Assembly: GCF_004296335.1 (NCBI RefSeq)
Contig: NZ_SGIU01000002.1
Span: 1,439,882 to 1,503,881, forward strand
Origin: Flagellimonas allohymeniacidonis
GTDB lineage: Bacteria > Bacteroidota > Bacteroidia > Flavobacteriales > Flavobacteriaceae
Direction of reading: 5' to 3'
DNA: 64,000 nt
A model generated the notes under the pieces. That model did not search any database and was not told the DNA's origin. It saw only the letters and a program-made list of their open reading frames with translations. Made by a program: the position numbers and the translations under genes. Shown here piece by piece: positions 51,159-61,550 of this stretch. Numbering within the stretch: position 1 is the first letter of the stretch; each line of letters opens with the position of its first letter.

Positions 51159-52445
51159 CTAAAGAATAATGGCCTTTTCCATTTTTGCCCGTATCTCCTG
51201 CAAACACAAATTTCCTAAACTCCCATCATGGGTGTGCTCTATGTCCCGTTTCGGTTGAAAGGTGCCCGCTTCAATTTCGGCTCCCATTTTTTTATAGGCA
51301 TCCCGAAACGGCATTCCATTTTTTACGAGTTCATTCAAGGTATCAACACTAAATAGATAATCATACTTGGGGTCGTCGAGAATCTCAGCATTGACTTGAA
51401 CTTCCTTTAAACTGAAATGCATCATTTCCAAACAAGCCTTCATGTCTTGTAGCGCTGGAACTATGATTTCCTTTACCAATTGTAGATCACGGTGGTACCC
51501 GCTGGGCAGATTATTGATAATCACGGTCAATTGGTTCGGCACCGCTTGGATTTTGTTGCATTTGGCCCGGATCAGCTCAAAAACATCGGGGTTTTTCTTG
51601 TGGGGCATAATGCTACTCCCCGTGGTCAATTCGTTGGGGAAAGAGATAAAGTTGAAGTTTTGGCTCATGTACAGGCAAATGTCCATCGCTAATTTCGAGA
51701 GCGTTGAAGCCACGCTTGAAATGCCAAAGGCCGTGGCCCGCTCCGCCTTTCCCCGGCCCATTTGGGCGGCAACAACATTGTATTTTAAAGTTTCAAAATT
51801 CATTTCTTCCGTGGTGAAAGTACGGTCAATAGGAAAGGAACTCCCATAACCTGCTGCACTTCCCAAAGGGTTTTGGTCAGCAGCTTTAAAGGCGGCATTC
51901 AAAAAATGAACATCATCCACCAAACTTTCGGCGAAGGCAGAAAACCAAAGCCCAAAGGAGGAAGGCATGGCAATCTGGAGGTGTGTATACCCAGGAAGCA
52001 GCACTTTTCGATGCTTTTCGGCCAACTCCAACAGCAAATCAAACAAAGTTTTGACCAAACTCTTTACCTCTGCGAGTTCATCTTTAAGATATAATTGCAT
52101 GGCTACGAGCACTTGGTCGTTTCGTGATCGCGCGGTATGGATTTTCTTCCCGGTATCCCCCAATTTTTGGATCAACAAATACTCAATTTTTGAATGCATG
52201 TCCTCAAACTCCTCCTCGATGGTGAAATCTCCAGCTTTAATGGCTTCGTCAATAATGTCCAACTCTCGTGTTAGGCCTTTGGCTTCCTCAGCAGTAATTA
52301 ACCCAACATGACCCAACATTTTGGCATGGGCCTTTGAGGCCATTACATCGTACTTCGCCAAAACGAGGTCCAATTCACGGTCGTTGCCAACCGTAAAATG
52401 GTCAATTTTTTTATCTGTACTAAAGCCTTTGTCCCAGAGTTTCAT
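51159..52445 (-). CDS. argH: Argininosuccinate lyase
   Basis: A 428-residue member of the fumarase/aspartase superfamily, a little shorter than the usual 455-465 residues. LWDKGFSTD opens it; HSKIEYLLI, KIHTARSRNDQVLVAMQLYLKDE, GYTHLQIAMPSSFGLWFSAFAESL and the signature GSSIMPHKKNPDVFELIRAK are all in place. It splits argininosuccinate into arginine and fumarate, the last step of the pathway, in the cytoplasm. It is the final gene of the arginine operon, separated by 47 bases from argE, the largest gap in the run. Confidence 0.95.
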   Translation of the reverse strand: MKLWDKGFSTDKKIDHFTVGNDRELDLVLAKYDVMASKAHAKMLGHVGLITAEEAKGLTRELDIIDEAIKAGDFTIEEEFEDMHSKIEYLLIQKLGDTGKKIHTARSRNDQVLVAMQLYLKDELAEVKSLVKTLFDLLLELAEKHRKVLLPGYTHLQIAMPSSFGLWFSAFAESLVDDVHFLNAAFKAADQNPLGSAAGYGSSFPIDRTFTTEEMNFETLKYNVVAAQMGRGKAERATAFGISSVASTLSKLAMDICLYMSQNFNFISFPNELTTGSSIMPHKKNPDVFELIRAKCNKIQAVPNQLTVIINNLPSGYHRDLQLVKEIIVPALQDMKACLEMMHFSLKEVQVNAEILDDPKYDYLFSVDTLNELVKNGMPFRDAYKKMGAEIEAGTFQPKRDIEHTHDGSLGNLCLQEIRAKMEKAIIL

Positions 52446-52492: not shown

Positions 52493-53569
52493 TTAGTTCT
52501 CGGAAAGAAATCCTTCCAAAATTTTAATATACAAATCAATACCTTCTTCAATCTCATGTAGGTGGATAAATTCATTCGCCGAATGTGAACGAGTGCTATC
52601 CCCAGGCCCCAATTTTACGGATTGACAGCTCAAGGCCGCTTGATCGGAAAGGGTAGGCGAACCATAGGTTTTTCGCCCAAGGCCAATACCACTTTTGACC
52701 AAACCGTGTTCAGGGTCTATGGCTGACGAGTTCAATCGCAACGATCTCGGGGTCAACTTACATGGAGCTTCTTGTTCCAAATACTTGGCAATTTCCTGAT
52801 TGGTGTAACGGTCGTTTACACGTACGTCGACTACCAAATTAACATGGGCTGGCACTACGTTGTGTTGATGACCAGCACTTATTTGGGTCACTGTCATTTT
52901 TACTTCTCCCAACGTATCGGATACTTTATCGAAGGAATAATTTTTGAACCAATTCAACACCTCAATGCTATTGTAAATGGAGTTGTTGTTGTTGGGATGG
53001 GCCGCGTGTGAAGGTGTACCTTCCACAACCCCGTCAAAAACAATGAGGCCCTTTTCTGCAATGGCCAGATCCATTAGAGTGGGCTCTCCCACAATGGCCA
53101 CATCAATCTCTGGAAGAATCGGCAACAGGGCCCTTAGGCTTTTTTCTCCGGCATCTTCTTCCTCAGCCGTGGCAGCCATAATGATATTATGGTTCAAGTT
53201 TTCCCGCTCATAAAAATGTACAAAAGTGGCCAATAAGGAAACCAAGCACCCTCCAGCGTCATTGCTCCCCAAACCATATAATTTTCCATCTTCCACATGG
53301 GCATCAAAGGGATCTTTGGTGTATGCCGTATTGGGTTTTACGGTATCATGATGTGAATTCAGCAACAGAGTAGGTTTGCCTTCATCATAATGTTTGTTGA
53401 ATGCATAGATGTTGTTAAACTGTCTTTGTGTTTTAACGCCAAACCCATGCAACCAGACCTCAATTGCATCTCCGGTTTCGTCTTCCTCACCCGAAAATGA
53501 AGGAGTAGCGATCAACTTCTTCAGAAGTGCAATGGCTTTGTTCGTGAGTTGTTCTTGTTCGACCTTCAT
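52493..53569 (-). CDS. argE: M20-family N-acyl-citrulline/N-acyl-ornithine deacylase
   Basis: A 358-residue zinc peptidase-family enzyme. NSHHDTVKP at 71-79 carries the first zinc His and Asp, GSNDAGGC holds the bridging Asp, ATAEEEDAGE the catalytic Glu pair, and VGEPT the next ligand. The final His ligand is in the SRSHSANEFIHLHEIEE segment. In Bacteroidetes pathways with an N-acylornithine carbamoyltransferase, this enzyme removes acetyl or succinyl from N-acylcitrulline, not from N-acylornithine, before argG. It overlaps argB by 4 bases. I retain the symbol argE for the family; the acyl group is not resolved. Confidence 0.85.
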   Translation of the reverse strand: MKVEQEQLTNKAIALLKKLIATPSFSGEEDETGDAIEVWLHGFGVKTQRQFNNIYAFNKHYDEGKPTLLLNSHHDTVKPNTAYTKDPFDAHVEDGKLYGLGSNDAGGCLVSLLATFVHFYERENLNHNIIMAATAEEEDAGEKSLRALLPILPEIDVAIVGEPTLMDLAIAEKGLIVFDGVVEGTPSHAAHPNNNNSIYNSIEVLNWFKNYSFDKVSDTLGEVKMTVTQISAGHQHNVVPAHVNLVVDVRVNDRYTNQEIAKYLEQEAPCKLTPRSLRLNSSAIDPEHGLVKSGIGLGRKTYGSPTLSDQAALSCQSVKLGPGDSTRSHSANEFIHLHEIEEGIDLYIKILEGFLSEN

Positions 53570-54345
53570 AATGTGAGTGTAGTAAAAGTTGTTGACTCAT
53601 TCCTAATCATACTGCTATCGCCAATGCACACTTTTTTCACCTTGTTTTGCAAGGCATAAAAACAATTGTGGAGTTTCGGTAGCATCCCATCCGAAATAAT
53701 ACCTTCCTCCAAAAGGGTTTTATAGGAGTGGGAATCAATATGCGTAATTACGGAGTTTTCATCAGAAACATTGCGCAGAACCCCCTTCTTTTCAAAACAA
53801 TAATAAAGCGTGGTTTCAAAGTGGGACGTCAAGCCAACAGCAAGCTCTGAGGCTATGGTATCGGCATTGGTATTCAATAATTGACCTTTACCATCATGCG
53901 TAAGCGCACAAAAAACAGGAGTAAAACCGGTTTGAAGCAGACTAAAAACGCCTTGGGCGTTGACGGCTTCAATATCGCCAACAAAACCAAAATCCACCTC
54001 TTGGACAGCCCTTTTATGCGCCCTGATGGAACCGCCGTCCGCTCCGCTCATTCCAATGGAGTTGGTGCCCAAACCTTGCAATTTGGCAACGATATTTTTG
54101 TTGACCAAGCCACCATAGACCATTACAGCTACATCCAAGCTCTGTGCATCGGTGATTCGTCTACCGTTTGTCATTTTGGCCTCAATACCCAGTTTATTTC
54201 CCATTTCCGTAGCCTTTTTGCCTCCACCGTGGACCAATATTTTGGCACCTTTCATATGGGAAAAAGATTGTAGTAATTGGAAAAGTCCATCGTTATCTTC
54301 GATGATATTTCCTCCTATTTTTACTATGGACAGGGTCTCCTTCAT
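53566..54345 (-). CDS. argB: N-acylglutamate kinase
   Basis: A 259-residue amino-acid kinase. SIVKIGGNIIED (7-18, phosphate-binding Lys-Gly-Gly), KILVHGGGKKATEMGNKLG, and TNGRRITDAQSLDVAVMVYGGL are acetylglutamate kinase signatures; GMSGADGGSIRAHKR follows. It phosphorylates N-acetyl- or N-succinylglutamate at the gamma carboxyl. I see no N-terminal extension of the arginine-inhibited type, so arginine feedback at this enzyme is not evident from the sequence. Four-base overlaps with argF' and argE show tight translational coupling. Confidence 0.93.
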   Translation of the reverse strand: MKETLSIVKIGGNIIEDNDGLFQLLQSFSHMKGAKILVHGGGKKATEMGNKLGIEAKMTNGRRITDAQSLDVAVMVYGGLVNKNIVAKLQGLGTNSIGMSGADGGSIRAHKRAVQEVDFGFVGDIEAVNAQGVFSLLQTGFTPVFCALTHDGKGQLLNTNADTIASELAVGLTSHFETTLYYCFEKKGVLRNVSDENSVITHIDSHSYKTLLEEGIISDGMLPKLHNCFYALQNKVKKVCIGDSSMIRNESTTFTTLTL

Positions 54346-55280
54346 AGACTTTCCAAGATTTTTTTCAATACAATCTGTACCGAAAAGGTTCGATTGTTAG
54401 CTTGTTCGGTGGTCAGGCTCTGAGGGCCATCCAATACTGCATCTTCAACCACCACATTTCTTCGTACAGGAAGGCAATGCATGAATTTTGCTTTTCCCAA
54501 TTTTTCTTGGGTCATCATCCAATTGGAATCCTGATGCAATACTTTTCCATAATTGGAATAGCTGCTCCAGTTTTTCACATAGACAAAATCGGCCTGTTCC
54601 AATGCTTTTGCTTGATCATATTCGATTTGGCATCCATGGGTAATTTCTGGATTGAGCTCATAGCCCTTGGGATGCGTGATTACAAATTCAGCATGTTGCA
54701 TCTTTATCATGGAGACGAACGAATTTGCCACCGCATGTGGAAGTGCTTTGGGATGTGGAGCCCAAGAAAGGACAATCTTTGGCTTTGCTTTAGTTTTGTT
54801 CTCCTCCATGGTTATGGCATCTGCCAGGGCTTGAAGCGGGTGGGCTGTGGAACTTTCCATATTGACCACTGGAACCGAGGCATATTTTCGAAATCCCCGA
54901 AGAACTTCTTCGGCTTCGTCTGTTTTCTTGTTCTGCAATCCTGCAAATGCACGGATAGCAAGGATATCACAGTATTGTGAAACCACGCGGGCAGCTTCTT
55001 TGATGTGTTCCGAAGTGCTATGGTTCATAACAGTGCCATCACCAAATTCCAAAGTCCAGCCTTCTTTTCCAAAGTTCATGATCAAAACCTGCATGCCCAA
55101 ATGCAAGGCAGCTTTTTGAGTGCTCAATCGGGTGCGTAGGCTGTTATTAAAAAACAGGAGGCAAATGGTCTTGTTCTTCCCCAATGCATCAAACTGGTAG
55201 GGACTTTTTTTCAAGGCAATAGCGTCTTCCACCAAATTGGGCAGTGAGTCAATATCATTCAAAGAGAGAAAATGCTTCAT
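54342..55280 (-). CDS. argF': N-succinyl/acetylornithine carbamoyltransferase
   Basis: A 312-residue carbamoyltransferase. FFNNSLRTRLSTQKAAL at 43-59 holds the carbamoyl-phosphate loop in the SLRTR form (instead of STRTR) typical of the N-acylornithine enzymes of Bacteroidetes. ATHPLQ-like SSTAHPLQALADAIT, LSWAPHPKALPHAVANSF, FVITHPKGYELNP and FMHCLPVRRNVVV are diagnostic too. It carbamoylates N-succinyl- or N-acetylornithine to the N-acylcitrulline. In the loop that sets acyl preference the residue is Ser90 (TSEHI), neither the Pro nor the Glu I recall for the two characterised types. Overlaps argD and argB by 4 bases each. Confidence 0.88.
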   Translation of the reverse strand: MKHFLSLNDIDSLPNLVEDAIALKKSPYQFDALGKNKTICLLFFNNSLRTRLSTQKAALHLGMQVLIMNFGKEGWTLEFGDGTVMNHSTSEHIKEAARVVSQYCDILAIRAFAGLQNKKTDEAEEVLRGFRKYASVPVVNMESSTAHPLQALADAITMEENKTKAKPKIVLSWAPHPKALPHAVANSFVSMIKMQHAEFVITHPKGYELNPEITHGCQIEYDQAKALEQADFVYVKNWSSYSNYGKVLHQDSNWMMTQEKLGKAKFMHCLPVRRNVVVEDAVLDGPQSLTTEQANNRTFSVQIVLKKILESL

Positions 55281-56404
55281 ACCAATTCTTGTTTTAGTGC
55301 ATCAAAAAACAAATCAATATGTGACTTGGTAATGTTTAGAGCCGGGAGAATCCGGAGTAACTTTTTGTTTTTTGACCCACCTGCAAATAGGTGTTGCTTA
55401 TGGATCAATCGTTTTCTGAGGTCGGCTACTTCAAAATCAAATTCAAGTCCGAGCATGAGCCCTCTTCCCTTTATCTTTTTCACATGAGGTAGCTCTGTCG
55501 CCTTTTCCATAAAATATTCTCCAAGCTTTCGAGAATTCTTAATCAAATTTTCGTCTTCCAAAACTTCTAGAACAGCTAAAGTGGCCGCACAGGCAAGATG
55601 ATTTCCACCAAAGGTGGTGCCCAAAAGCCCATAGGACGCCTTAATGGATTCATGGATGAGAATTCCTCCCACGGGGAAACCGTTGCCCATACCTTTTGCT
55701 ATGGAAATGATATCGGGCTGAATATCGTGATGTTGAAAGGCAAAAAATTTTCCACTTCGCCCAAATCCGGATTGCACTTCGTCTGCAATGAGCACAATCC
55801 CATTGGCTTTGCACGTTTCGGCAATATGTTGAAAGAACTCCGTGGTAGGTTCGTCCAATCCGCCGACCCCTTGAATGGCCTCTAAAATTACCGCACAATA
55901 GTCGTTGGTTTGAATTGCCTTTTCGAAAGCTTCGAAATCATTCAAAGGCAGGAATGTGACCTGTTGCTGTTTGTTGATGGGGGCGTTGATGGCGGGATTG
56001 TCCGTGGTCGCTACCGCTGCGGAGGTCCTTCCGTGAAAGCTGTTCCCAAAAGCAATTACTTTTGATCTTCCAGTGTGGAAAGAAGCCAATTTCAAGGCAT
56101 TTTCATTGGCCTCAGCACCCGAATTGCAAAGAAACAAGTTGTAGTCCTTGCAATTTGAGAGCTTTTCCAACTTTTCTACCAATTCCAATTGCAGAGGATT
56201 TTGGATGGAATTGCTGTAAAAACCAATTTTATCCAATTGGGACTTTATCCGATTTACATAATGCGGGTGCGAATGCCCAATGGAAATAACTGCATGGCCT
56301 CCATAAAAATCGAGATAGGTGTCACCTTTTTCATCAACCACTTCAATTCCTTTGGCGGATACTGGGGAGACGTCGTAAAGGGGATATACATCAAAAAGCT
56401 TCAT
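55277..56404 (-). CDS. argD: N-acylornithine aminotransferase
   Basis: A 375-residue class-III PLP aminotransferase of usual length. GDTYLDFYGGHAVISIGHSHP opens the fold, FLCNSGAEANENALKLA and FGNSFHGRTSAA are substrate and PLP contacts, IADEVQSGFGRSGKFFAFQ holds the PLP-binding Asp, and IISIAKGMGNGFPVGG the Schiff-base Lys237. It makes N-acylornithine from N-acylglutamate semialdehyde with glutamate as amino donor. Its start lies one base after the proC stop, and its last four bases overlap argF'. Confidence 0.94.
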   Translation of the reverse strand: MKLFDVYPLYDVSPVSAKGIEVVDEKGDTYLDFYGGHAVISIGHSHPHYVNRIKSQLDKIGFYSNSIQNPLQLELVEKLEKLSNCKDYNLFLCNSGAEANENALKLASFHTGRSKVIAFGNSFHGRTSAAVATTDNPAINAPINKQQQVTFLPLNDFEAFEKAIQTNDYCAVILEAIQGVGGLDEPTTEFFQHIAETCKANGIVLIADEVQSGFGRSGKFFAFQHHDIQPDIISIAKGMGNGFPVGGILIHESIKASYGLLGTTFGGNHLACAATLAVLEVLEDENLIKNSRKLGEYFMEKATELPHVKKIKGRGLMLGLEFDFEVADLRKRLIHKQHLFAGGSKNKKLLRILPALNITKSHIDLFFDALKQELV

Positions 56405-56405
56405 C

Positions 56406-57200
56406 TTACCCTTTTCTTATTTGATTAATCTTTTCAAATGAGGTCACAATTCCTTTGATCAAGGAAGAGCTGAGACCTTGATGTTCCATTTCATTCAAAC
56501 CTTCAATGGTACAACCTTTCGGCGTGGTCACCCTATCGATTTCTTCTTCCGGATGGGTGCCCGAATCAATGAGCAGATTGGCTGCCCCATTGCAAGTGTG
56601 CATGGCAAGTTCTTGGGCTTCCTTAGCATCAAAACCTAGCTGGATGGCACCTTGCGTGGTGGCCCGTATCAAGCGCATCCAAAACGCGATACCGCTAGCA
56701 CATATGACTGTAGCCGCCTGCATTTGTTCCTCCGGAATTTCTAATGAATGTCCCATGCGGTTGAATATCGCCTTCGCGAGGTCAATGCGTTTTTTGCCCA
56801 ATTCATTGGTGCAAATGCAAGTCATGGAATTACCTACAGAAATGGCCGTATTTGGCATACTTCGAATAATGTATTGGTCCGATCCTATGATGGCTTCCAT
56901 TTTGGAAATTCTGAAACCAGTAATGGTGCTGATGATGACATGATTTTCGTTGAGCAAGTCCTTGATCTCTTCCAAAATGGCCGCAAAATGACCAGGCTGT
57001 ACGGCAAAAATGAGTACATCCGAATTTTTTACTGCTTCTCGGTTATTTGAAGTGACCGTGACATTGCCATATTTCTCGAAATTTTGAATTTCCACTGTGT
57101 TTCGCTTGGTCAAATACATGGTGGTTGCACCGTTGCTGTGCAAAACTCCTTTGGCAATGGCCAATCCTAAATTTCCGGCTCCTATAATCGCTATTTTCAT
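56406..57200 (-). CDS. proC: Pyrroline-5-carboxylate reductase
   Basis: A 264-residue NAD(P)H-dependent reductase. IAIIGAGNLGLAIAKGVL at 3-20 is the nucleotide fold; SDVLIFAVQPGHF, ISTITGFRI, IIRSMPNTAISVGNSMTCIC and VTTPKGCTIEGLNEMEHQGL are the ProC signature segments. It makes proline from pyrroline-5-carboxylate. Its place inside an arginine operon, between argC and argD, is known in Bacteroidetes and suggests a link to glutamate semialdehyde. The gap to argC is 11 bases, to argD one base. Confidence 0.93.
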   Translation of the reverse strand: MKIAIIGAGNLGLAIAKGVLHSNGATTMYLTKRNTVEIQNFEKYGNVTVTSNNREAVKNSDVLIFAVQPGHFAAILEEIKDLLNENHVIISTITGFRISKMEAIIGSDQYIIRSMPNTAISVGNSMTCICTNELGKKRIDLAKAIFNRMGHSLEIPEEQMQAATVICASGIAFWMRLIRATTQGAIQLGFDAKEAQELAMHTCNGAANLLIDSGTHPEEEIDRVTTPKGCTIEGLNEMEHQGLSSSLIKGIVTSFEKINQIRKG

Positions 57201-57211
57201 GATATTCTTTT

Positions 57212-58186
57212 TTAAAAAACCCCTGCTTTAAGTTGCAAACCTTCTTTTTCGTCAAAACCAAAAATCAGGTTCATATTCTGAATGGCTTGTCCCGAGGCAC
57301 CTTTCAGAAGGTTATCGATTGCTGAAGTAATCAGCAAAACATCTTCGTGCTTGTGCAGGTGTATATGGCAGTTATTGGTGTTTACTACTTGTTTTAGATG
57401 AATAGGATCCCCTGAAACATGGGTAAATACAGCATTGGAATAGAAATCGCCATATAGGCTTTGTGCCTCCTCCAAGGCGCCCTCAAATTTTGTATAGGCT
57501 GTTGCAAAAATTCCTCTGGTGAAGTTTCCACGATTGGGGAGAAAGTTTAGGGTTCCCACAGGATTTCCAAAGGAGGCAACACTTTCTCCAATTTCGCCCA
57601 AATGTTGATGGGTGAAAGGTTTGTACCATGAAACATTGTTATTTCTCCAGCTAAAGTGAGAGGTTGCGGATAGTCCAACACCAGCACCTGTACTTCCGGT
57701 CACGGCATTAATATGGACTTCATTTGACAACCGACCTGCTTTCGCCAAAGGCAGCAGGGCCAATTGAACGGCGGTCGCAAAACATCCAGGGTTGGCGATA
57801 TAGGACGCAGGTATTATCTGCTCTTTATGCAACTCTGGAAGACCGTAAACAAATGTTTTTCCTTGATAAACCGCATCTTCCTGTAGCCTGAAGTCATTGC
57901 TTAGGTCAATGATTTTTGTCTCTGGGCTAAACGTGTTCTCTTCCAAGAACTTCTTTGAATTTCCATGACCGAGACATAAAAAAACCACATCTATATTGGG
58001 ATTGATTTCCCCTGAAAATTTCATATCGGTTAGCCCCAAAATATCCGGATGAGCCGAACTAAGGGCTTTTCCAGCTCGTGTGGTACTGAACACAAAATCT
58101 ATCTTCGCTTCTGCATGGTTCAGAAGCAAGCGAATTAATTCACCACCCGTATATCCAGACCCTCCTATTATTCCAACTTTAATCAT
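57212..58186 (-). CDS. argC: N-acyl-gamma-glutamyl-phosphate reductase
   Basis: A 324-residue reductase. VGIIGGSGYTGGELIRLLLNH at 4-24 binds NADPH; VVFLCLGHGNSKKFLE, IDLSNDFRLQ and VYGLPELHKEQI follow; IANPGCFATAVQLALLPL holds the catalytic Cys135. It reduces N-acylglutamyl phosphate to the semialdehyde used by argD. Length is standard. Its start codon lies within argG (8-base overlap), so the two are co-translated. Confidence 0.94.
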   Translation of the reverse strand: MIKVGIIGGSGYTGGELIRLLLNHAEAKIDFVFSTTRAGKALSSAHPDILGLTDMKFSGEINPNIDVVFLCLGHGNSKKFLEENTFSPETKIIDLSNDFRLQEDAVYQGKTFVYGLPELHKEQIIPASYIANPGCFATAVQLALLPLAKAGRLSNEVHINAVTGSTGAGVGLSATSHFSWRNNNVSWYKPFTHQHLGEIGESVASFGNPVGTLNFLPNRGNFTRGIFATAYTKFEGALEEAQSLYGDFYSNAVFTHVSGDPIHLKQVVNTNNCHIHLHKHEDVLLITSAIDNLLKGASGQAIQNMNLIFGFDEKEGLQLKAGVF

Positions 58187-59369
58187 CGCTCAGGTTTGAA
58201 TGTGTTGCAATTTTTCCTGGGTTGGACAGGATTTTAATGAATCCCTTGGCATCGTCGGCAGTCCATCCCTTGTTCATTTCACCATAACTTCCGAAGGAAG
58301 CATTCATCAAGTCGTGATTGGATTTCACACCGTTCAGCTCAAAACGATAGGGATGAAGCGTGACAAATACATTTCCCGATACATTTTTTTGAGTGTCGGT
58401 CAAAAAGATCTCTATGTTTCGCATCACCTCGTCCAAATAGTTGCCTTCATGCAGCAGCATTCCATAAAAGTTCCCCAGCTGTTCTTTTTGGTATTGTTGC
58501 CACTTGCTCAAAGTGTGTTTTTCCAGCAAATGGTGCGCTTTTATGATAATCAAAGGTGCGGCGGCCTCGAATCCTACGCGACCTTTGATCCCAATAATGG
58601 TGTCCCCCACATGAATGTCCCTACCAATGGCATATTTGGAAGCGATTTCAGAGAGCTTTTCAATATTCTCAACAGGGGTGGCGATTTCTCCATCTATTGC
58701 TACCAATTCCCCTTTTTGAAAGGTCAATTTTAACTCTTTTGGGATTTCTTTTTCGAGCTGGCTTGGATAGGCGGTACCAGGTAAAGGCAGATGGGAAGTC
58801 AAAGTTTCATCCCCTCCTACCGAAGTACCCCATAGGCCTCGGTTGATGGAGTATTTTGCCTTTTCCCAAGAATATTCGATTCCGTTTTTCTGTAGATATT
58901 CGATTTCTTCCTCTCGAGACAGTTTGTTATCCCTAATTGGGGTAATAATCTTGATATCAGGAGCCATGATTTGAAAGATCATATCGAACCGAACTTGGTC
59001 GTTGCCGGCTCCTGTACTGCCATGAGCGATGTATTCTGCGCCCATTTTCTTGGCGTAATTCACAATTTCAAGGGCTTGGACGATTCGCTCGGCACTTACA
59101 GAAAGTGGATAAGTGTTATTACGCAACACGTTCCCAAAAATCAGATATTTCACCACTTTTTCGTAGAAATGGGAAACCGCATCGATGGAAGTATAGGTGG
59201 TTGCCCCCAACTCAAGGGCTTTTTGCTCGATTTCTGAAATTTCCTGTTTGGAAAATCCTCCTGTGTTCACGCTTACCGCATGAACTTCAAAGCCTTCCTC
59301 TTGGGAAAGGTATTTGGCACAATACGATGTGTCCAATCCGCCGCTGTAAGCCAGTACTAGTTTTTTCAT
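58179..59369 (-). CDS. argG: Argininosuccinate synthase
   Basis: A 396-residue enzyme of standard length. LAYSGGLDTSYCAKYL at 5-20 is the ATP PP-loop; YIAHGSTGAGNDQVRFD is the citrulline/aspartate site; SREEEIEYLQKNGIE, SINRGLWGTSVGGDETLTS follow, as expected. It joins citrulline and aspartate with ATP to argininosuccinate in the cytoplasm. Being second in the operon, it is made with the early enzymes although it works late in the pathway. It starts in the GNAT gene stop (ATGA) and overlaps argC by 8 bases. Confidence 0.95.
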   Translation of the reverse strand: MKKLVLAYSGGLDTSYCAKYLSQEEGFEVHAVSVNTGGFSKQEISEIEQKALELGATTYTSIDAVSHFYEKVVKYLIFGNVLRNNTYPLSVSAERIVQALEIVNYAKKMGAEYIAHGSTGAGNDQVRFDMIFQIMAPDIKIITPIRDNKLSREEEIEYLQKNGIEYSWEKAKYSINRGLWGTSVGGDETLTSHLPLPGTAYPSQLEKEIPKELKLTFQKGELVAIDGEIATPVENIEKLSEIASKYAIGRDIHVGDTIIGIKGRVGFEAAAPLIIIKAHHLLEKHTLSKWQQYQKEQLGNFYGMLLHEGNYLDEVMRNIEIFLTDTQKNVSGNVFVTLHPYRFELNGVKSNHDLMNASFGSYGEMNKGWTADDAKGFIKILSNPGKIATHSNLSDD

Positions 59370-59980
59370 TTTGTTTTCTTTTTTAGGAAAAGGTTCTGTT
59401 TCATTTCCTTTAATCGTTGAAAGGCCTTTCCATTAAGCTTTCTCGATTTATATTTTTGTGCGTTGGAGTCGTACAACATTCCCGTACAAAGGCACATTTT
59501 GCGTTCGGTTCTAGTAAGAATATCAAAGTTCTTGCAGGTCTGGCAGCCTTTCCAGAAGTCCGGATCATCGGTGAGCTCTGAAAAAGTCACAGGCTTGTAC
59601 CCGAGTTCATAATTCATTTTCATCACGGCAAGCCCAGTGGTAATCCCAAAGATTTTGGCATTGGGAAATTTTTTCCTCGATAGTTCAAAAACGGCTTTTT
59701 TAATTTTTTTTGCCAAACCTTGGTTTCGATAATCGGGATGCACAATCAAGCCCGAGTTGGCCACGAAGTTTTTATTGCCCCAAACTTCGATATAGCAAAA
59801 GCCCGCAAAGTTATCCCCATCAAGGGCAATCACGGCATTGCCATTTTGCAATCTTTTGATGATGTATTCAGGTGTTCTTTGCGCAATACCGGTACCTCTG
59901 ACCTTTGCAGAGTCGGTAATGGTATCACTTATGATCTGTGCGTACTTAAAATGTGATTCGTTAGCAACTAAAATTTCCAT
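59366..59980 (-). CDS. GNAT acetyltransferase with Cys-rich tail, candidate N-acylglutamate synthase
   Basis: A 204-residue GNAT protein, first gene of the arginine operon. The acetyl-CoA loop lies in VHPDYRNQGLAKKIKKAV (about 81-98), preceded by FAGFCYIEVWG and ANSGLIV strands. After the domain come four cysteines, C146-x2-C149 (KGCQTCKNF) and C163-x-C165 (KMCLCTG), arranged like a small zinc site, then a Lys/Arg-rich tail. No argA or argJ is present in the operon, so this enzyme is the natural candidate to acylate glutamate in the first step. The role is by context; the zinc site is inference. Leader peptide and hairpin lie just upstream. Confidence 0.8.
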   Translation of the reverse strand: MEILVANESHFKYAQIISDTITDSAKVRGTGIAQRTPEYIIKRLQNGNAVIALDGDNFAGFCYIEVWGNKNFVANSGLIVHPDYRNQGLAKKIKKAVFELSRKKFPNAKIFGITTGLAVMKMNYELGYKPVTFSELTDDPDFWKGCQTCKNFDILTRTERKMCLCTGMLYDSNAQKYKSRKLNGKAFQRLKEMKQNLFLKKKTK

Positions 59981-60031
59981 TGCTACTTTGATTTAAACTG
60001 AAAAATGAACTAAAAATCTTGGAGTTTTTGC

Positions 60032-60053
60032 GGAAATGGACTCACCTATTTCC
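60032..60053 (-). promoter_or_regulatory. Hairpin in the arginine-operon leader
   Basis: On the minus strand GGAAAT+GG pairs with CC+ATTTCC (8 bp with a single bulged A) around the loop TGAGT. It lies 18-39 bases after the stop of the leader reading frame and 52 bases before the GNAT start. No T-run follows directly (the nearest five T begin about 15 bases on), so it is not a classic terminator; it may act in pausing or in access to a downstream signal. Confidence 0.45.
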
Positions 60054-60070
60054 ATAACTGATGTGCACCC

Positions 60071-60151
60071 TTACGGGCGACGGCGGGAAGCGAAAGGACG
60101 TACGGGAGCTGTGATGCCCAAAGAAAAGAATATGTCTTTTTGTTCTTTCAT
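60071..60151 (-). CDS. Candidate 26-residue arginine-rich leader peptide of the arginine operon
   Basis: ATG at 60151 opens 26 codons ending TAA at 60071. The peptide starts MKEQKDIFFSLG and ends VRPFASRRRP; four of the last nine sense codons are arginine (CGT, CGC, CGT, CGC), three in a row close to the stop. That is the pattern of amino-acid-sensing attenuator leaders, where ribosome stalling at scarce charged tRNA alters downstream structure. It sits 91 bases before the first arginine gene, on the same strand, with a hairpin between. TTG (60200-60198), 23 bases, TTAATTTG (60174-60167) could be its promoter, with one mismatch at -7. Not a known family member to me; role is inference. Confidence 0.55.
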   Translation of the reverse strand: MKEQKDIFFSLGITAPVRPFASRRRP

Positions 60152-60185
60152 TATGGGTTAAAAGTACAAATTAATTCCAATTGGC

Positions 60186-61550
60186 CTAGTTTGCACCCAA
60201 TTTTTTAAAGAAATCTAACTTTTTTCCTTCTTTAGCGGTCAATTCATAAATCATAACGCCGAACACTGCTAAATATTCGATGAGCAAGAGCCATAGATTT
60301 TCGGTATAATCCGGATTGGAATAGGCCCAATAACTCAACATAACAGTAATTGACCATACCAAAGGAAATCGGTACTTGGTAAAAATACCCAACACCAAAA
60401 GAAAGACAATATACCAGGGATGTACCGTGCTGGAGAGAAAAAGATAGCAAGCCAATACCCATAACATGGATTTTAGCAAAGTATTGAAATGCTCATTTTT
60501 CCGAAAGAAGGCCAGCACCAAGGTGATGCCAATTACGGCCAGCACCATGACCTTGCCATAACTTTTTATGAGTTCCCAAGGCTTGGCATCAAAGTATGTT
60601 GTTCCGATATGTTTTACCAGGTTGTAAAGGCCTGCATTAAATTCAAAATTGGAGAACCACAATCCCACAGTTTCAGAGTAATTGTCGACAAAAACGGATG
60701 AATAAAAGGGGAGAAGCAGTAAAAGACATGCCGTGCCCGTAAAGAAGTAAAAACCTATACTTTTTTTTATCCCAAAGTATCTTAGAAACAAGGGCAGAAA
60801 CAATATGGGAACCAATTTCGTCATAATGGACAGCGCGTAAACGGGAGCGGCGACCCTCCACTTTCCTTTAGAAACCAGATAAAGTGCCCAAACAAAGAAA
60901 AACAGCATTACCCCTTCAAAATGGAGATTACCCGTTAGTTCGATAATGACCAATGGGTTGAGAAAGTACCAGAATGCAAAGTCTGGGGACAGGTTAAGAT
61001 GTTTAAGTAGCTTTCCTGCAAAAAGTAGAACTCCGATATCGGCCATGATGATTAGGAGCCGCATGGCGATGACAGAGCCTGGAATACTTCCGCCTCCAAA
61101 GAACGCTGCAATAGTAAAAATAATCTGGTTCAACGGAGGATAATTACTGAAGTGCTTTGCGCTGAGCTCTCCCATGCCCGCAAAAAGTTGATCGGCGTTT
61201 GAGATAGGGAGGTTGTTTTGAAGGATAAGGTCCTTGGGAAGATGAATGTATGGATTGATTCCATTTTTAATCAATTCCCCGTCCCAGATAAAACGGTAAA
61301 AATCTTGGGAAAGATTGGGTTCCATCCAAAGGAACACAAGTCGAAACAGTAAGCCAGAAATCAAAAGGAATTTGAAATTCCGCTTTTCAAACTGAATCAG
61401 TTTGAGGCATAAAAAGGACATTCCCGCATAGAGCGTGATCAGTTTGACAAAGTCAGTTCGATTTAAGTCGTAGGCGAAGCTGACATAAAAGAGAAGGCTT
61501 CCCAGTACAAAAAGTATGGGATATTTGTGAAGTCTCCAATAAGACCACAT
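60186..61550 (-). CDS. Polytopic GT-C glycosyltransferase (mannosyltransferase-like)
   Basis: A 454-residue inner-membrane protein with about twelve helices. The first large loop holds PNLSQDFYRFIWDGELIKNGINPY at about 93-116, the acidic DFYR/WDG motif followed by GxNPY that marks polyprenol-phosphate-sugar-dependent GT-C enzymes of the GT87/mannosyltransferase kind. A second outer loop has NYPPLNQIIF. Such enzymes add a sugar from a lipid-linked donor outside the inner membrane. It follows two GT2 genes with three bases between, so all three likely work on one glycan. The ending K-L-G-A-N-stop overlaps the proposed arginine-operon promoter region. Confidence 0.82.
   Translation of the reverse strand: MWSYWRLHKYPILFVLGSLLFYVSFAYDLNRTDFVKLITLYAGMSFLCLKLIQFEKRNFKFLLISGLLFRLVFLWMEPNLSQDFYRFIWDGELIKNGINPYIHLPKDLILQNNLPISNADQLFAGMGELSAKHFSNYPPLNQIIFTIAAFFGGGSIPGSVIAMRLLIIMADIGVLLFAGKLLKHLNLSPDFAFWYFLNPLVIIELTGNLHFEGVMLFFFVWALYLVSKGKWRVAAPVYALSIMTKLVPILFLPLFLRYFGIKKSIGFYFFTGTACLLLLLPFYSSVFVDNYSETVGLWFSNFEFNAGLYNLVKHIGTTYFDAKPWELIKSYGKVMVLAVIGITLVLAFFRKNEHFNTLLKSMLWVLACYLFLSSTVHPWYIVFLLVLGIFTKYRFPLVWSITVMLSYWAYSNPDYTENLWLLLIEYLAVFGVMIYELTAKEGKKLDFFKKLGAN

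Follow-up and report, generated by a model that had tools for sequence, protein, structure and literature searches.

A predicted arginine-sensing leader with two hairpins upstream of the arginine operon of Flavobacteriaceae

A short ORF with clustered Arg codons, followed by two hairpins (here termed H1 and H2), precedes the arginine operon of Flagellimonas allohymeniacidonis, and this leader element is, as judged by sequence comparison, conserved beyond chance in most of the arginine-making flavobacteria examined. In the common layout, a short ORF whose last 12 codons include about four CGY codons is succeeded by H1, a spacer of 10-14 nt, H2, and the arginine operon itself. We consider it quite probable that this arrangement constitutes a cis-acting attenuator that senses the charging of the tRNA-Arg reading CGU and CGC, whatever the output of the switch may be. 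The arginine repressor ArgR (PF01316) had no match in the genome under study nor in any other of the 100 family genomes searched (100/100 negative, own included), and the control search matched 9 of 14 control genomes, Bacteroides among them. Hence, the matching of arginine synthesis to need lacks its usual repressor in these bacteria, and the leader is a strong candidate answer to how it is achieved. If confirmed, it would be an instance of ribosome-mediated attenuation in arginine biosynthesis in which any terminator is weak, and it would provide, in H2, a sharply defined RNA hairpin whose partner could be fished for directly.

The window, i.e., the whole stretch of 64,000 nucleotides that was analyzed, contains an arginine gene cluster whose order, as assigned with Pfam and NCBIfam, is GNAT-argG-argC-proC-argD-argF'-argB-argE-argH (Table 1). 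The first gene encodes a GNAT acetyltransferase that is probably the N-acyl-glutamate synthase of the arginine pathway. A conserved block just before the leader ATG, present in the same-genus alignment and, by eye, also in many loci of other genera, corresponds to the box TACTTTTA, which fits the Bacteroidota -7 consensus, TAnnTTTG. Since this box lies just before the leader ATG, transcription is predicted to start upstream of position 60071, probably near 60154, a few bases ahead of the leader. By eye, the synonymous sites of the early GNAT codons (GCTAACGAATCACAT, window positions 59965-59951) are unusually constant within the genus.

Table 1. Features of the leader region and of the arginine gene cluster (window coordinates)
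Feature	Position	Strand	Description
Promoter box, -7-like, TACTTTTA	60159..60166	-	TACATTTG in many relatives; conserved block just before leader ATG
Leader ORF	60071..60151	-	26 codons plus stop, MKEQKDIFFSLGITAPVRPFASRRRP-stop; C-terminus VRPFASRRRP-stop
Control-codon stretch	60074..60100	-	CGT..CGC CGT CGC CCG; four Arg codons, all CGY
Hairpin H1	60066..60079	-	CGCCC-GUAA-GGGUG; 5′ arm formed by Arg and Pro codons, loop holds stop codon
Hairpin H2	60032..60053	-	GGAAAU-(A)-GG-UGAGU-CC-AUUUCC; 6-bp stem, bulged A, GG/CC; family loop UGNGU
GNAT acetyltransferase, first gene	59366..59980	-	PF00583 and PF13508 above cut-off
argG, argininosuccinate synthase	58179..59369	-	TIGR00032 above cut-off
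argC	57212..58186	-	TIGR01850 above cut-off
proC	56406..57200	-	TIGR00112 above cut-off
argD-like class III aminotransferase	55277..56404	-	PF00202; TIGR00707 best match, below cut-off
argF', N-acyl-ornithine carbamoyltransferase	54342..55280	-	PF02729, PF00185; NF003384 best match, 282.6 bits (cut-off 288)
argB	53566..54345	-	TIGR00761 above cut-off
ArgE/DapE-type deacylase	52493..53569	-	PF01546; TIGR01910 best match, below cut-off
argH	51159..52445	-	TIGR00838 above cut-off

The initial annotation of this DNA had pointed out an Arg-rich frame of 26 codons and, after it, a bulged 8-bp hairpin, and both are indeed present, the hairpin being H2. The frame ends 90 nt upstream of the GNAT ATG (59980). 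Arg accounts for four of the nine final codons, every time as CGY. The comparison with relatives that had been proposed as a test was favourable, in that relatives within the genus and in other genera retain the short frame with its Arg codons and the peptide body drifts. An ORF of 24-27 codons ending in RRP-stop, located 87-93 nt before GNAT, was found in 30 of the 30 same-genus loci read, own included (GNAT was present in 34 genomes of the genus, again with own included; three of 33 full-length matches and one split match were left out). In the same-genus alignment the drifting body lies between fixed blocks, namely the promoter box, CGYCGYCGCCCGTAAGGGTG and GGAAATAGGTGAGTCCATTTCC, with a single R-to-G change in the CGYCGYCGCCCGTAAGGGTG block of one locus (L020). 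In addition, the ORF with its Arg-rich end was observed in 28 of 28 loci from other genera. Within the family as a whole, GNAT was matched in 139 of 199 genomes (two matches being weak), and argG was also missing from 19 of the 20 GNAT-less genomes tested, which are the 20 listed out of 60. The complete collection comprises 173 loci, 165 from the family and 8 from other families, and includes the genus set, the 28 other-genus loci and 107 further places.

The Arg codons of the leaders are strongly biased. Among those within the last 12 codons, 567 of 594 were CGY (142 of the 151 loci in which H2 was found by script, the other nine being lost to a script filter), compared with 27% CGY in 42 ORFs of the window; in this count the frame was picked as the one with most CGN codons, which biases it towards CGN. 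When the last three codons, which form the arm of H1, were left out, 308 of 334 Arg codons were CGY, so that the overall figure is 92-95%. A tRNA-Arg with anticodon ICG decodes CGY, and the bias is as expected if a single tRNA-Arg isoacceptor were sensed. Selection on the peptide itself appears weak, with a pN/pS of 0.70 for 13 distinct leaders of 26 codons and of 0.46 for 14 of 27 codons; the shifted frame of the 26-codon set gave a similar value (0.72), and therefore the ratio alone is no proof that the leader is translated. Ultra-short leaders of 8-9 codons (MRRFPRRP-stop) are uncertain, because in-frame GTG or TTG starts lengthen several of them to about 30 codons of similar sequence. At three loci (L090, L105 and L108) an extra short ORF (M..LKNKIR..., ending in RRSF, RRRF or RRRY) lies upstream of the arginine leader, 221-226 nt before GNAT.

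The element was also searched for independently of the gene, by scanning a collection of genome contigs with the pattern CGCCCGTARGGGTRN{14,24}AGGTGNGTCC, which itself demands CGC CCG TAR. At least 118 places were found, and in 114 of the 118 listed the arginine GNAT gene begins no more than 120 nt downstream; two others (L208 and L216) run off their contig. The 80 listed places whose titles were read belong to genera of Flavobacteriaceae or are labelled only as Flavobacteriaceae, Flavobacteriales, Bacteroidia or Bacteroidetes. With the frame set by the pattern and the last two codons excluded, 324 of 346 Arg codons in the 118 listed loci were CGY. At L211 and L280, argG lies 727 and 790 nt downstream, behind a different GNAT, and the leader, H1 and H2 are kept, which indicates that the element is tied to the arginine operon and not to one particular first gene. 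The GNAT of L211 is a distant relative (25% identity, E 2e-6), and by eye the first-gene GNATs of L280 and of genome G073 (L198) are like it; in G073, where argG also lies behind the other GNAT, neither leader nor H2 was seen in the DNA read.

H2 was detected by script in 151 of the 165 family loci, and in 154 after reading further upstream, which added L133, L093 and L165, where the leader lies 189-270 nt upstream. It is absent from 11 of the 165 (L090, L105, L108, L153, L159, L168, L169, L170, L172, L174 and L175), several of which still have a short ORF ending in Arg codons, and the script detected no H2 at the 8 loci outside the family. In genus g131, H2 was not seen at the arginine locus of G169, G256, G282, G353, G413, G443, G409, G275, G343, G417 and G387; two loci of this genus (L322 and L324) carry Arg-rich short ORFs upstream without H2. 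We then counted pairs anchored on the loop in a set of 122 loci that contains a single locus of the window genus and otherwise one per genus. The mean stem was 6.18 bp in this set, whose members had been preselected to have stems of 3 bp or more, as against 3.43 ± 0.20 when the 3′ flanks were exchanged between loci. Of the 122 loci, 115 have a bulge that is A or has A as its last base. The loop is closed on the inside by GC in 119 loci and by AU in the other 3; its sequence is UGAGU in 85, UGUGU in 26, UGCGU in 9 and UGCGC in 2. RNAalifold recovered only 2 pairs from alignment A1, since the length of the bulge shifts the register; the anchored counting and a register-true set, A2, made of 32 distinct H2 sequences with a one-base bulge, were used instead. 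In A2, 98.0% of the H2 cells were paired, both sides had changed in six of eight pairs, and the covariation score was 0.455 versus 0.168 for shuffled sequences, with 0 of 500 shuffles as high. By these measures H2, which the initial annotation had drawn from one sequence, is a conserved and covarying RNA element.

In a search of 16 genomes with the H2 model R1, the arginine locus ranked first in 15, four of which gave weak E values (0.08-0.7), and only three second matches were found in the 16 genomes among the best 150 of 611-1999 candidates per genome, all of them inside long open frames. A role of H2 as a general part of attenuators was thus discarded, because within that range no second copy lay outside long open frames. 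The second TAGGTGAGTCCA in the genome under study is antisense within a long open frame that resembles a surface protein.

H1 is an additional hairpin that the initial annotation had not described, and it comprises the final Arg and Pro codons of the leader, its stop and the bases that follow. Its 5′ arm consists of the final Arg codons of the leader, usually together with the Pro codon, and the stop usually lies in its loop. Using a score of pairs plus G-C pairs with a threshold of at least 8 for a hairpin near the last Arg codon, the 5-bp G+C-rich form or an equivalent was found in 91 of the 122 loci (a count that includes a few hairpins other than H1, at L112, L135 and L151), and the shuffles gave a mean of 31 and a maximum of 44. 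A four-pair form, GCCC/GGGT, was present in 29 of the remaining 31 loci. In L075 (GCGCAC/GTGCGC), L083 (CGCAC/GTGCG) and L163 (CGCGC/GCGCG) the stem was wholly replaced, and the leaders of these loci end in RRTFVRA-stop, RRTSVRV-stop or RPRLCA-stop, so that neither the Pro codon nor a stop in the H1 loop can be essential; in leaders of the RRPLGA-stop type the stop falls just beyond H1. As H1 is nearly invariant, its covariation rests on few lineages. The spacer 3′ of H1, whose composition was taken from 96 of the 122 loci, is 55% T and 22% A in the other genera and 32% T and 40% A in the window genus. H1 plus a T-rich spacer passed a loose terminator test in 52 of the 122 loci, nearly all of them in other genera, and within the window genus H1 passed it in 2 of 30 loci. 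When the spacer was swapped for other DNA of the same leader (114 of the 122 loci used), the number of loci passing averaged 28 and never exceeded 35, compared with 48 of 114 for the real spacers.

Taken as a sequence pattern, clustered cognate codons in a short ORF ahead of the cognate operon, with a hairpin lying over these codons, are what an attenuator is expected to have. In the mechanism that we propose, when arginine is plentiful the ribosome would pass the Arg codons, reach the stop and depart, and H1 would fold behind RNA polymerase; folded H1 would then cause the transcript to be shortened, by acting as a weak terminator or pause, possibly aided by Rho or a similar factor, or to be destabilised. 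When arginine is short, a ribosome stalled at a CGY codon would cover the 5′ arm of H1, so that H1 would not form and the operon would be expressed. H2 would probably be a recognition or pausing element that reads out the state of the leader. As to the output, transcription is somewhat favoured, and a smaller but sizeable share goes to mRNA stability or translation; we had held the two to be closer to even, and the finding that in other genera H1 is terminator-like more often than expected moved the balance towards transcription. A fuller version is a two-part switch, in which the position of the ribosome on the CGY codons sets H1 and a trans-acting protein or ligand recognizes H2, with no need of a strong terminator, and which would stand in for ArgR across Flavobacteriaceae; we put this forward tentatively and rate it as rather unlikely to hold in all its parts.

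Of the other elements of a classical attenuator, a conserved antiterminator was not found, and signs of a terminator were seen mainly in other genera. No terminator-like site was found in window positions 59900-60400; at least six T among the nine bases after H2 occurred in only 2 of the 122 loci, and in only 2 was H2 followed by a terminator-like hairpin ahead of the gene. Between 75 nt before the H2 loop and the gene start, terminator-like hairpins were present in 60 of the 122, and 52 of these consist of H1 and the T-rich spacer behind it, so that a terminator role of H1 was kept in consideration. The predicted fold of the complete leader did not surpass those of its shuffled versions (z -0.01). 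Furthermore, among the 84 of 122 loci that have a canonical H1 and the usual spacing, no mutually exclusive antiterminator pairing was conserved. Pairing of the 3′ arm of H1 with the start of GNAT, which had at first scored 3.17 pairs, was rejected as an antiterminator because it was near the codon-shuffled control (3.23 pairs in the stalled state, 2.94 with codons shuffled and 2.21 with the arm letters shuffled), and base pairing between the loop of H2 and the gene start was rejected because, by eye, the variable loop base does not track the gene start. The lack of a conserved partner of H1, together with the data on H1 and its T-rich spacer, favours direct occlusion of the 5′ arm of H1. In the case of the ribosome-mediated attenuation suggested by the initial annotation, the ORF, the Arg codons and the hairpin over them support the proposal in part, but neither a conserved antiterminator nor a strong terminator was found. 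Its reservation that the mechanism might depart from the textbook is also supported, given that the window region searched has no terminator-like site, that no conserved antiterminator was found and that the H2 loop is near-invariant, with the caveat that H1 is weakly terminator-like in other genera.

The trp, his and leu operons of Proteobacteria are controlled by ribosome-mediated transcription attenuation. The flavobacterial leader shares with them a short ORF with cognate codons, an overlapping hairpin and the cognate operon downstream, but it is an arginine leader, has neither a conserved antiterminator nor a strong terminator (H1 being weakly terminator-like in other genera), and carries an extra hairpin with a near-invariant loop. 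The fungal arginine attenuator peptide is encoded by an arginine-responsive upstream ORF and senses arginine through the nascent peptide; the arginine-responsive upstream ORF would be the shared trait, but the flavobacterial peptide is not conserved. A closer parallel is orf34 ahead of Salmonella speF, in which, according to the part of the report drawn on here, the hairpins formed, and with them decay by RNase G, depend on whether the ribosome pauses at two Arg codons or at the stop codon, with Rho termination as a further layer (PMC6386406). Two consecutive Arg codons sense arginine in orf34, as Arg codons would in the flavobacterial leader, and in both leaders hairpins lie around and after the leader stop; the speF leader, however, controls polyamine synthesis and uses rare Arg codons, whereas the flavobacterial codons are CGY, and Rho and RNase G have been shown to act on speF (PMC6386406, same part). 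The conserved peptide domain of orf34, DUF2618 (PMC6386406, same part), gave no Pfam match at E values up to 10, a weak test given that the window's 26-residue peptide was the only query. For Flavobacterium psychrophilum, strong indications that leader peptides control amino-acid operons by attenuation have been reported, and structured 5′ elements of pheA and hisG are named (PMC9723704); these elements come from the same family as the arginine leader, and no arginine leader was found in the text consulted. The uORFC-8-2 cysS motif of Rhodobacterales likewise has tandem cognate codons inside a conserved hairpin, but it concerns cysteine, alphaproteobacteria and an aminoacyl-tRNA synthetase gene (PMC8632094, in the portion used here). 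In the literature searched, no arginine leader was found described in Bacteroidota, and the Rfam 15 covariance models returned a single nematode snoRNA (E 1.2) for window positions 59900-60300 and nothing for eight loci.

Several other readings were weighed against tRNA-Arg sensing by the ribosome on the leader. The one that we take most seriously, although we would still not expect it to be correct, keeps the same sensor and thus overlaps with our explanation, differing only in the output, which would be mRNA decay or the translation of the first gene. The absence of a terminator-like site from the window region searched is in keeping with it, as is the somewhat raised pairing between the 20 nt that precede the gene start and the first 40 nt of the gene (4.38 versus 3.34 pairs with codons shuffled), and the Salmonella speF leader, with its hairpin switch and RNase G decay, would be a precedent (PMC6386406, part of the report as above). 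However, no conserved helix linking H1 or H2 to the gene start was found, the loop of H2 lies 53-78 nt upstream of that start in 115 of the 122 loci, and the combination of H1 and a T-rich spacer in other genera speaks for transcription. A different division of labour, in which H2 would be the primary sensor, with a protein or a small ligand (arginine itself, for instance) bound by its bulge and loop, and in which the leader ORF would do no more than tune the response, appears improbable. The GG/CC pairs and the UGNGU loop hardly vary and the stem is free to change, and the dearth of second R1 matches described above would also suit such a sensor, but the CGY codons are conserved just as well as H2, Arg-rich leaders in other families occur without this H2 (L062, L063, L068, L327 and L328), and the core is very small for an aptamer and has no match in Rfam.

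That the leader peptide arrests the ribosome when arginine or ornithine binds to the nascent chain, in the manner of TnaC or SpeFL, is more improbable still. The RRP-stop end occurs in 109 of the 118 listed pattern-found leaders, a count biased by a pattern that demands CGC CCG TAR, and the RP-stop end is shared with TnaC. An arrest peptide should nevertheless keep its C-terminal residues up to the stop, and this was not observed, as Pro and the stop position are replaced (RRTFVRA-stop, RRTSVRV-stop, RRLVRV-stop and RRPLGA-stop; loci L075, L080, L083, L134, L145 and L149) and what persists is the RR pair and the hairpin that overlies it. The choice of CGY codons is constrained, moreover, which a peptide would not need; with Pro and the stop varying and the CGY codons staying, arrest was rejected as the main reading. 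Finally, as an inverted repeat ahead of biosynthetic genes, H2 could be taken for the DNA operator of a repressor, the ORF being incidental. We give this next to no credence, because the arms change with compensation and with G-U pairs around a fixed centre, a behaviour that is not expected of a protein-bound DNA operator, and because H2 lies downstream of the predicted promoter and the ORF and its CGY codons are conserved. Sensing of tRNA-Arg charging by a ribosome on the CGY codons is the reading that we favour.

Arg-rich leaders recur in other families of the order, with different second hairpins. In family f2 they end in RRRPVRV-stop or RRRRPVRR-stop and are accompanied by GGUUACGUACC and its kin, in f7 they end in ERRLRA-stop or RRRLRA-stop, with GGUUCCGUACC and GCUUACGUAGC, in f15 they end in PNR or PNRQ and use AGR codons, and f3 has a leader ending in RRPLWVLN-stop. 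No Arg-rich leader was seen in f5 (6 loci) or f16 (3 loci), and the three loci of f9 gave an ambiguous picture. At four loci of f2 and f7 (L062, L063, L327 and L328) the hairpin loop is UACGU or UCCGU closed by a U-A pair and thus resembles the UGNGU of H2, and at L062 a T-rich tail follows this hairpin. In the reduced genomes of about 600 kb of genus g218, which belongs to family f16, the open frames that hold the GNAT matches are about 589-650 aa long, a length suggestive of a fusion of GNAT to ArgG.
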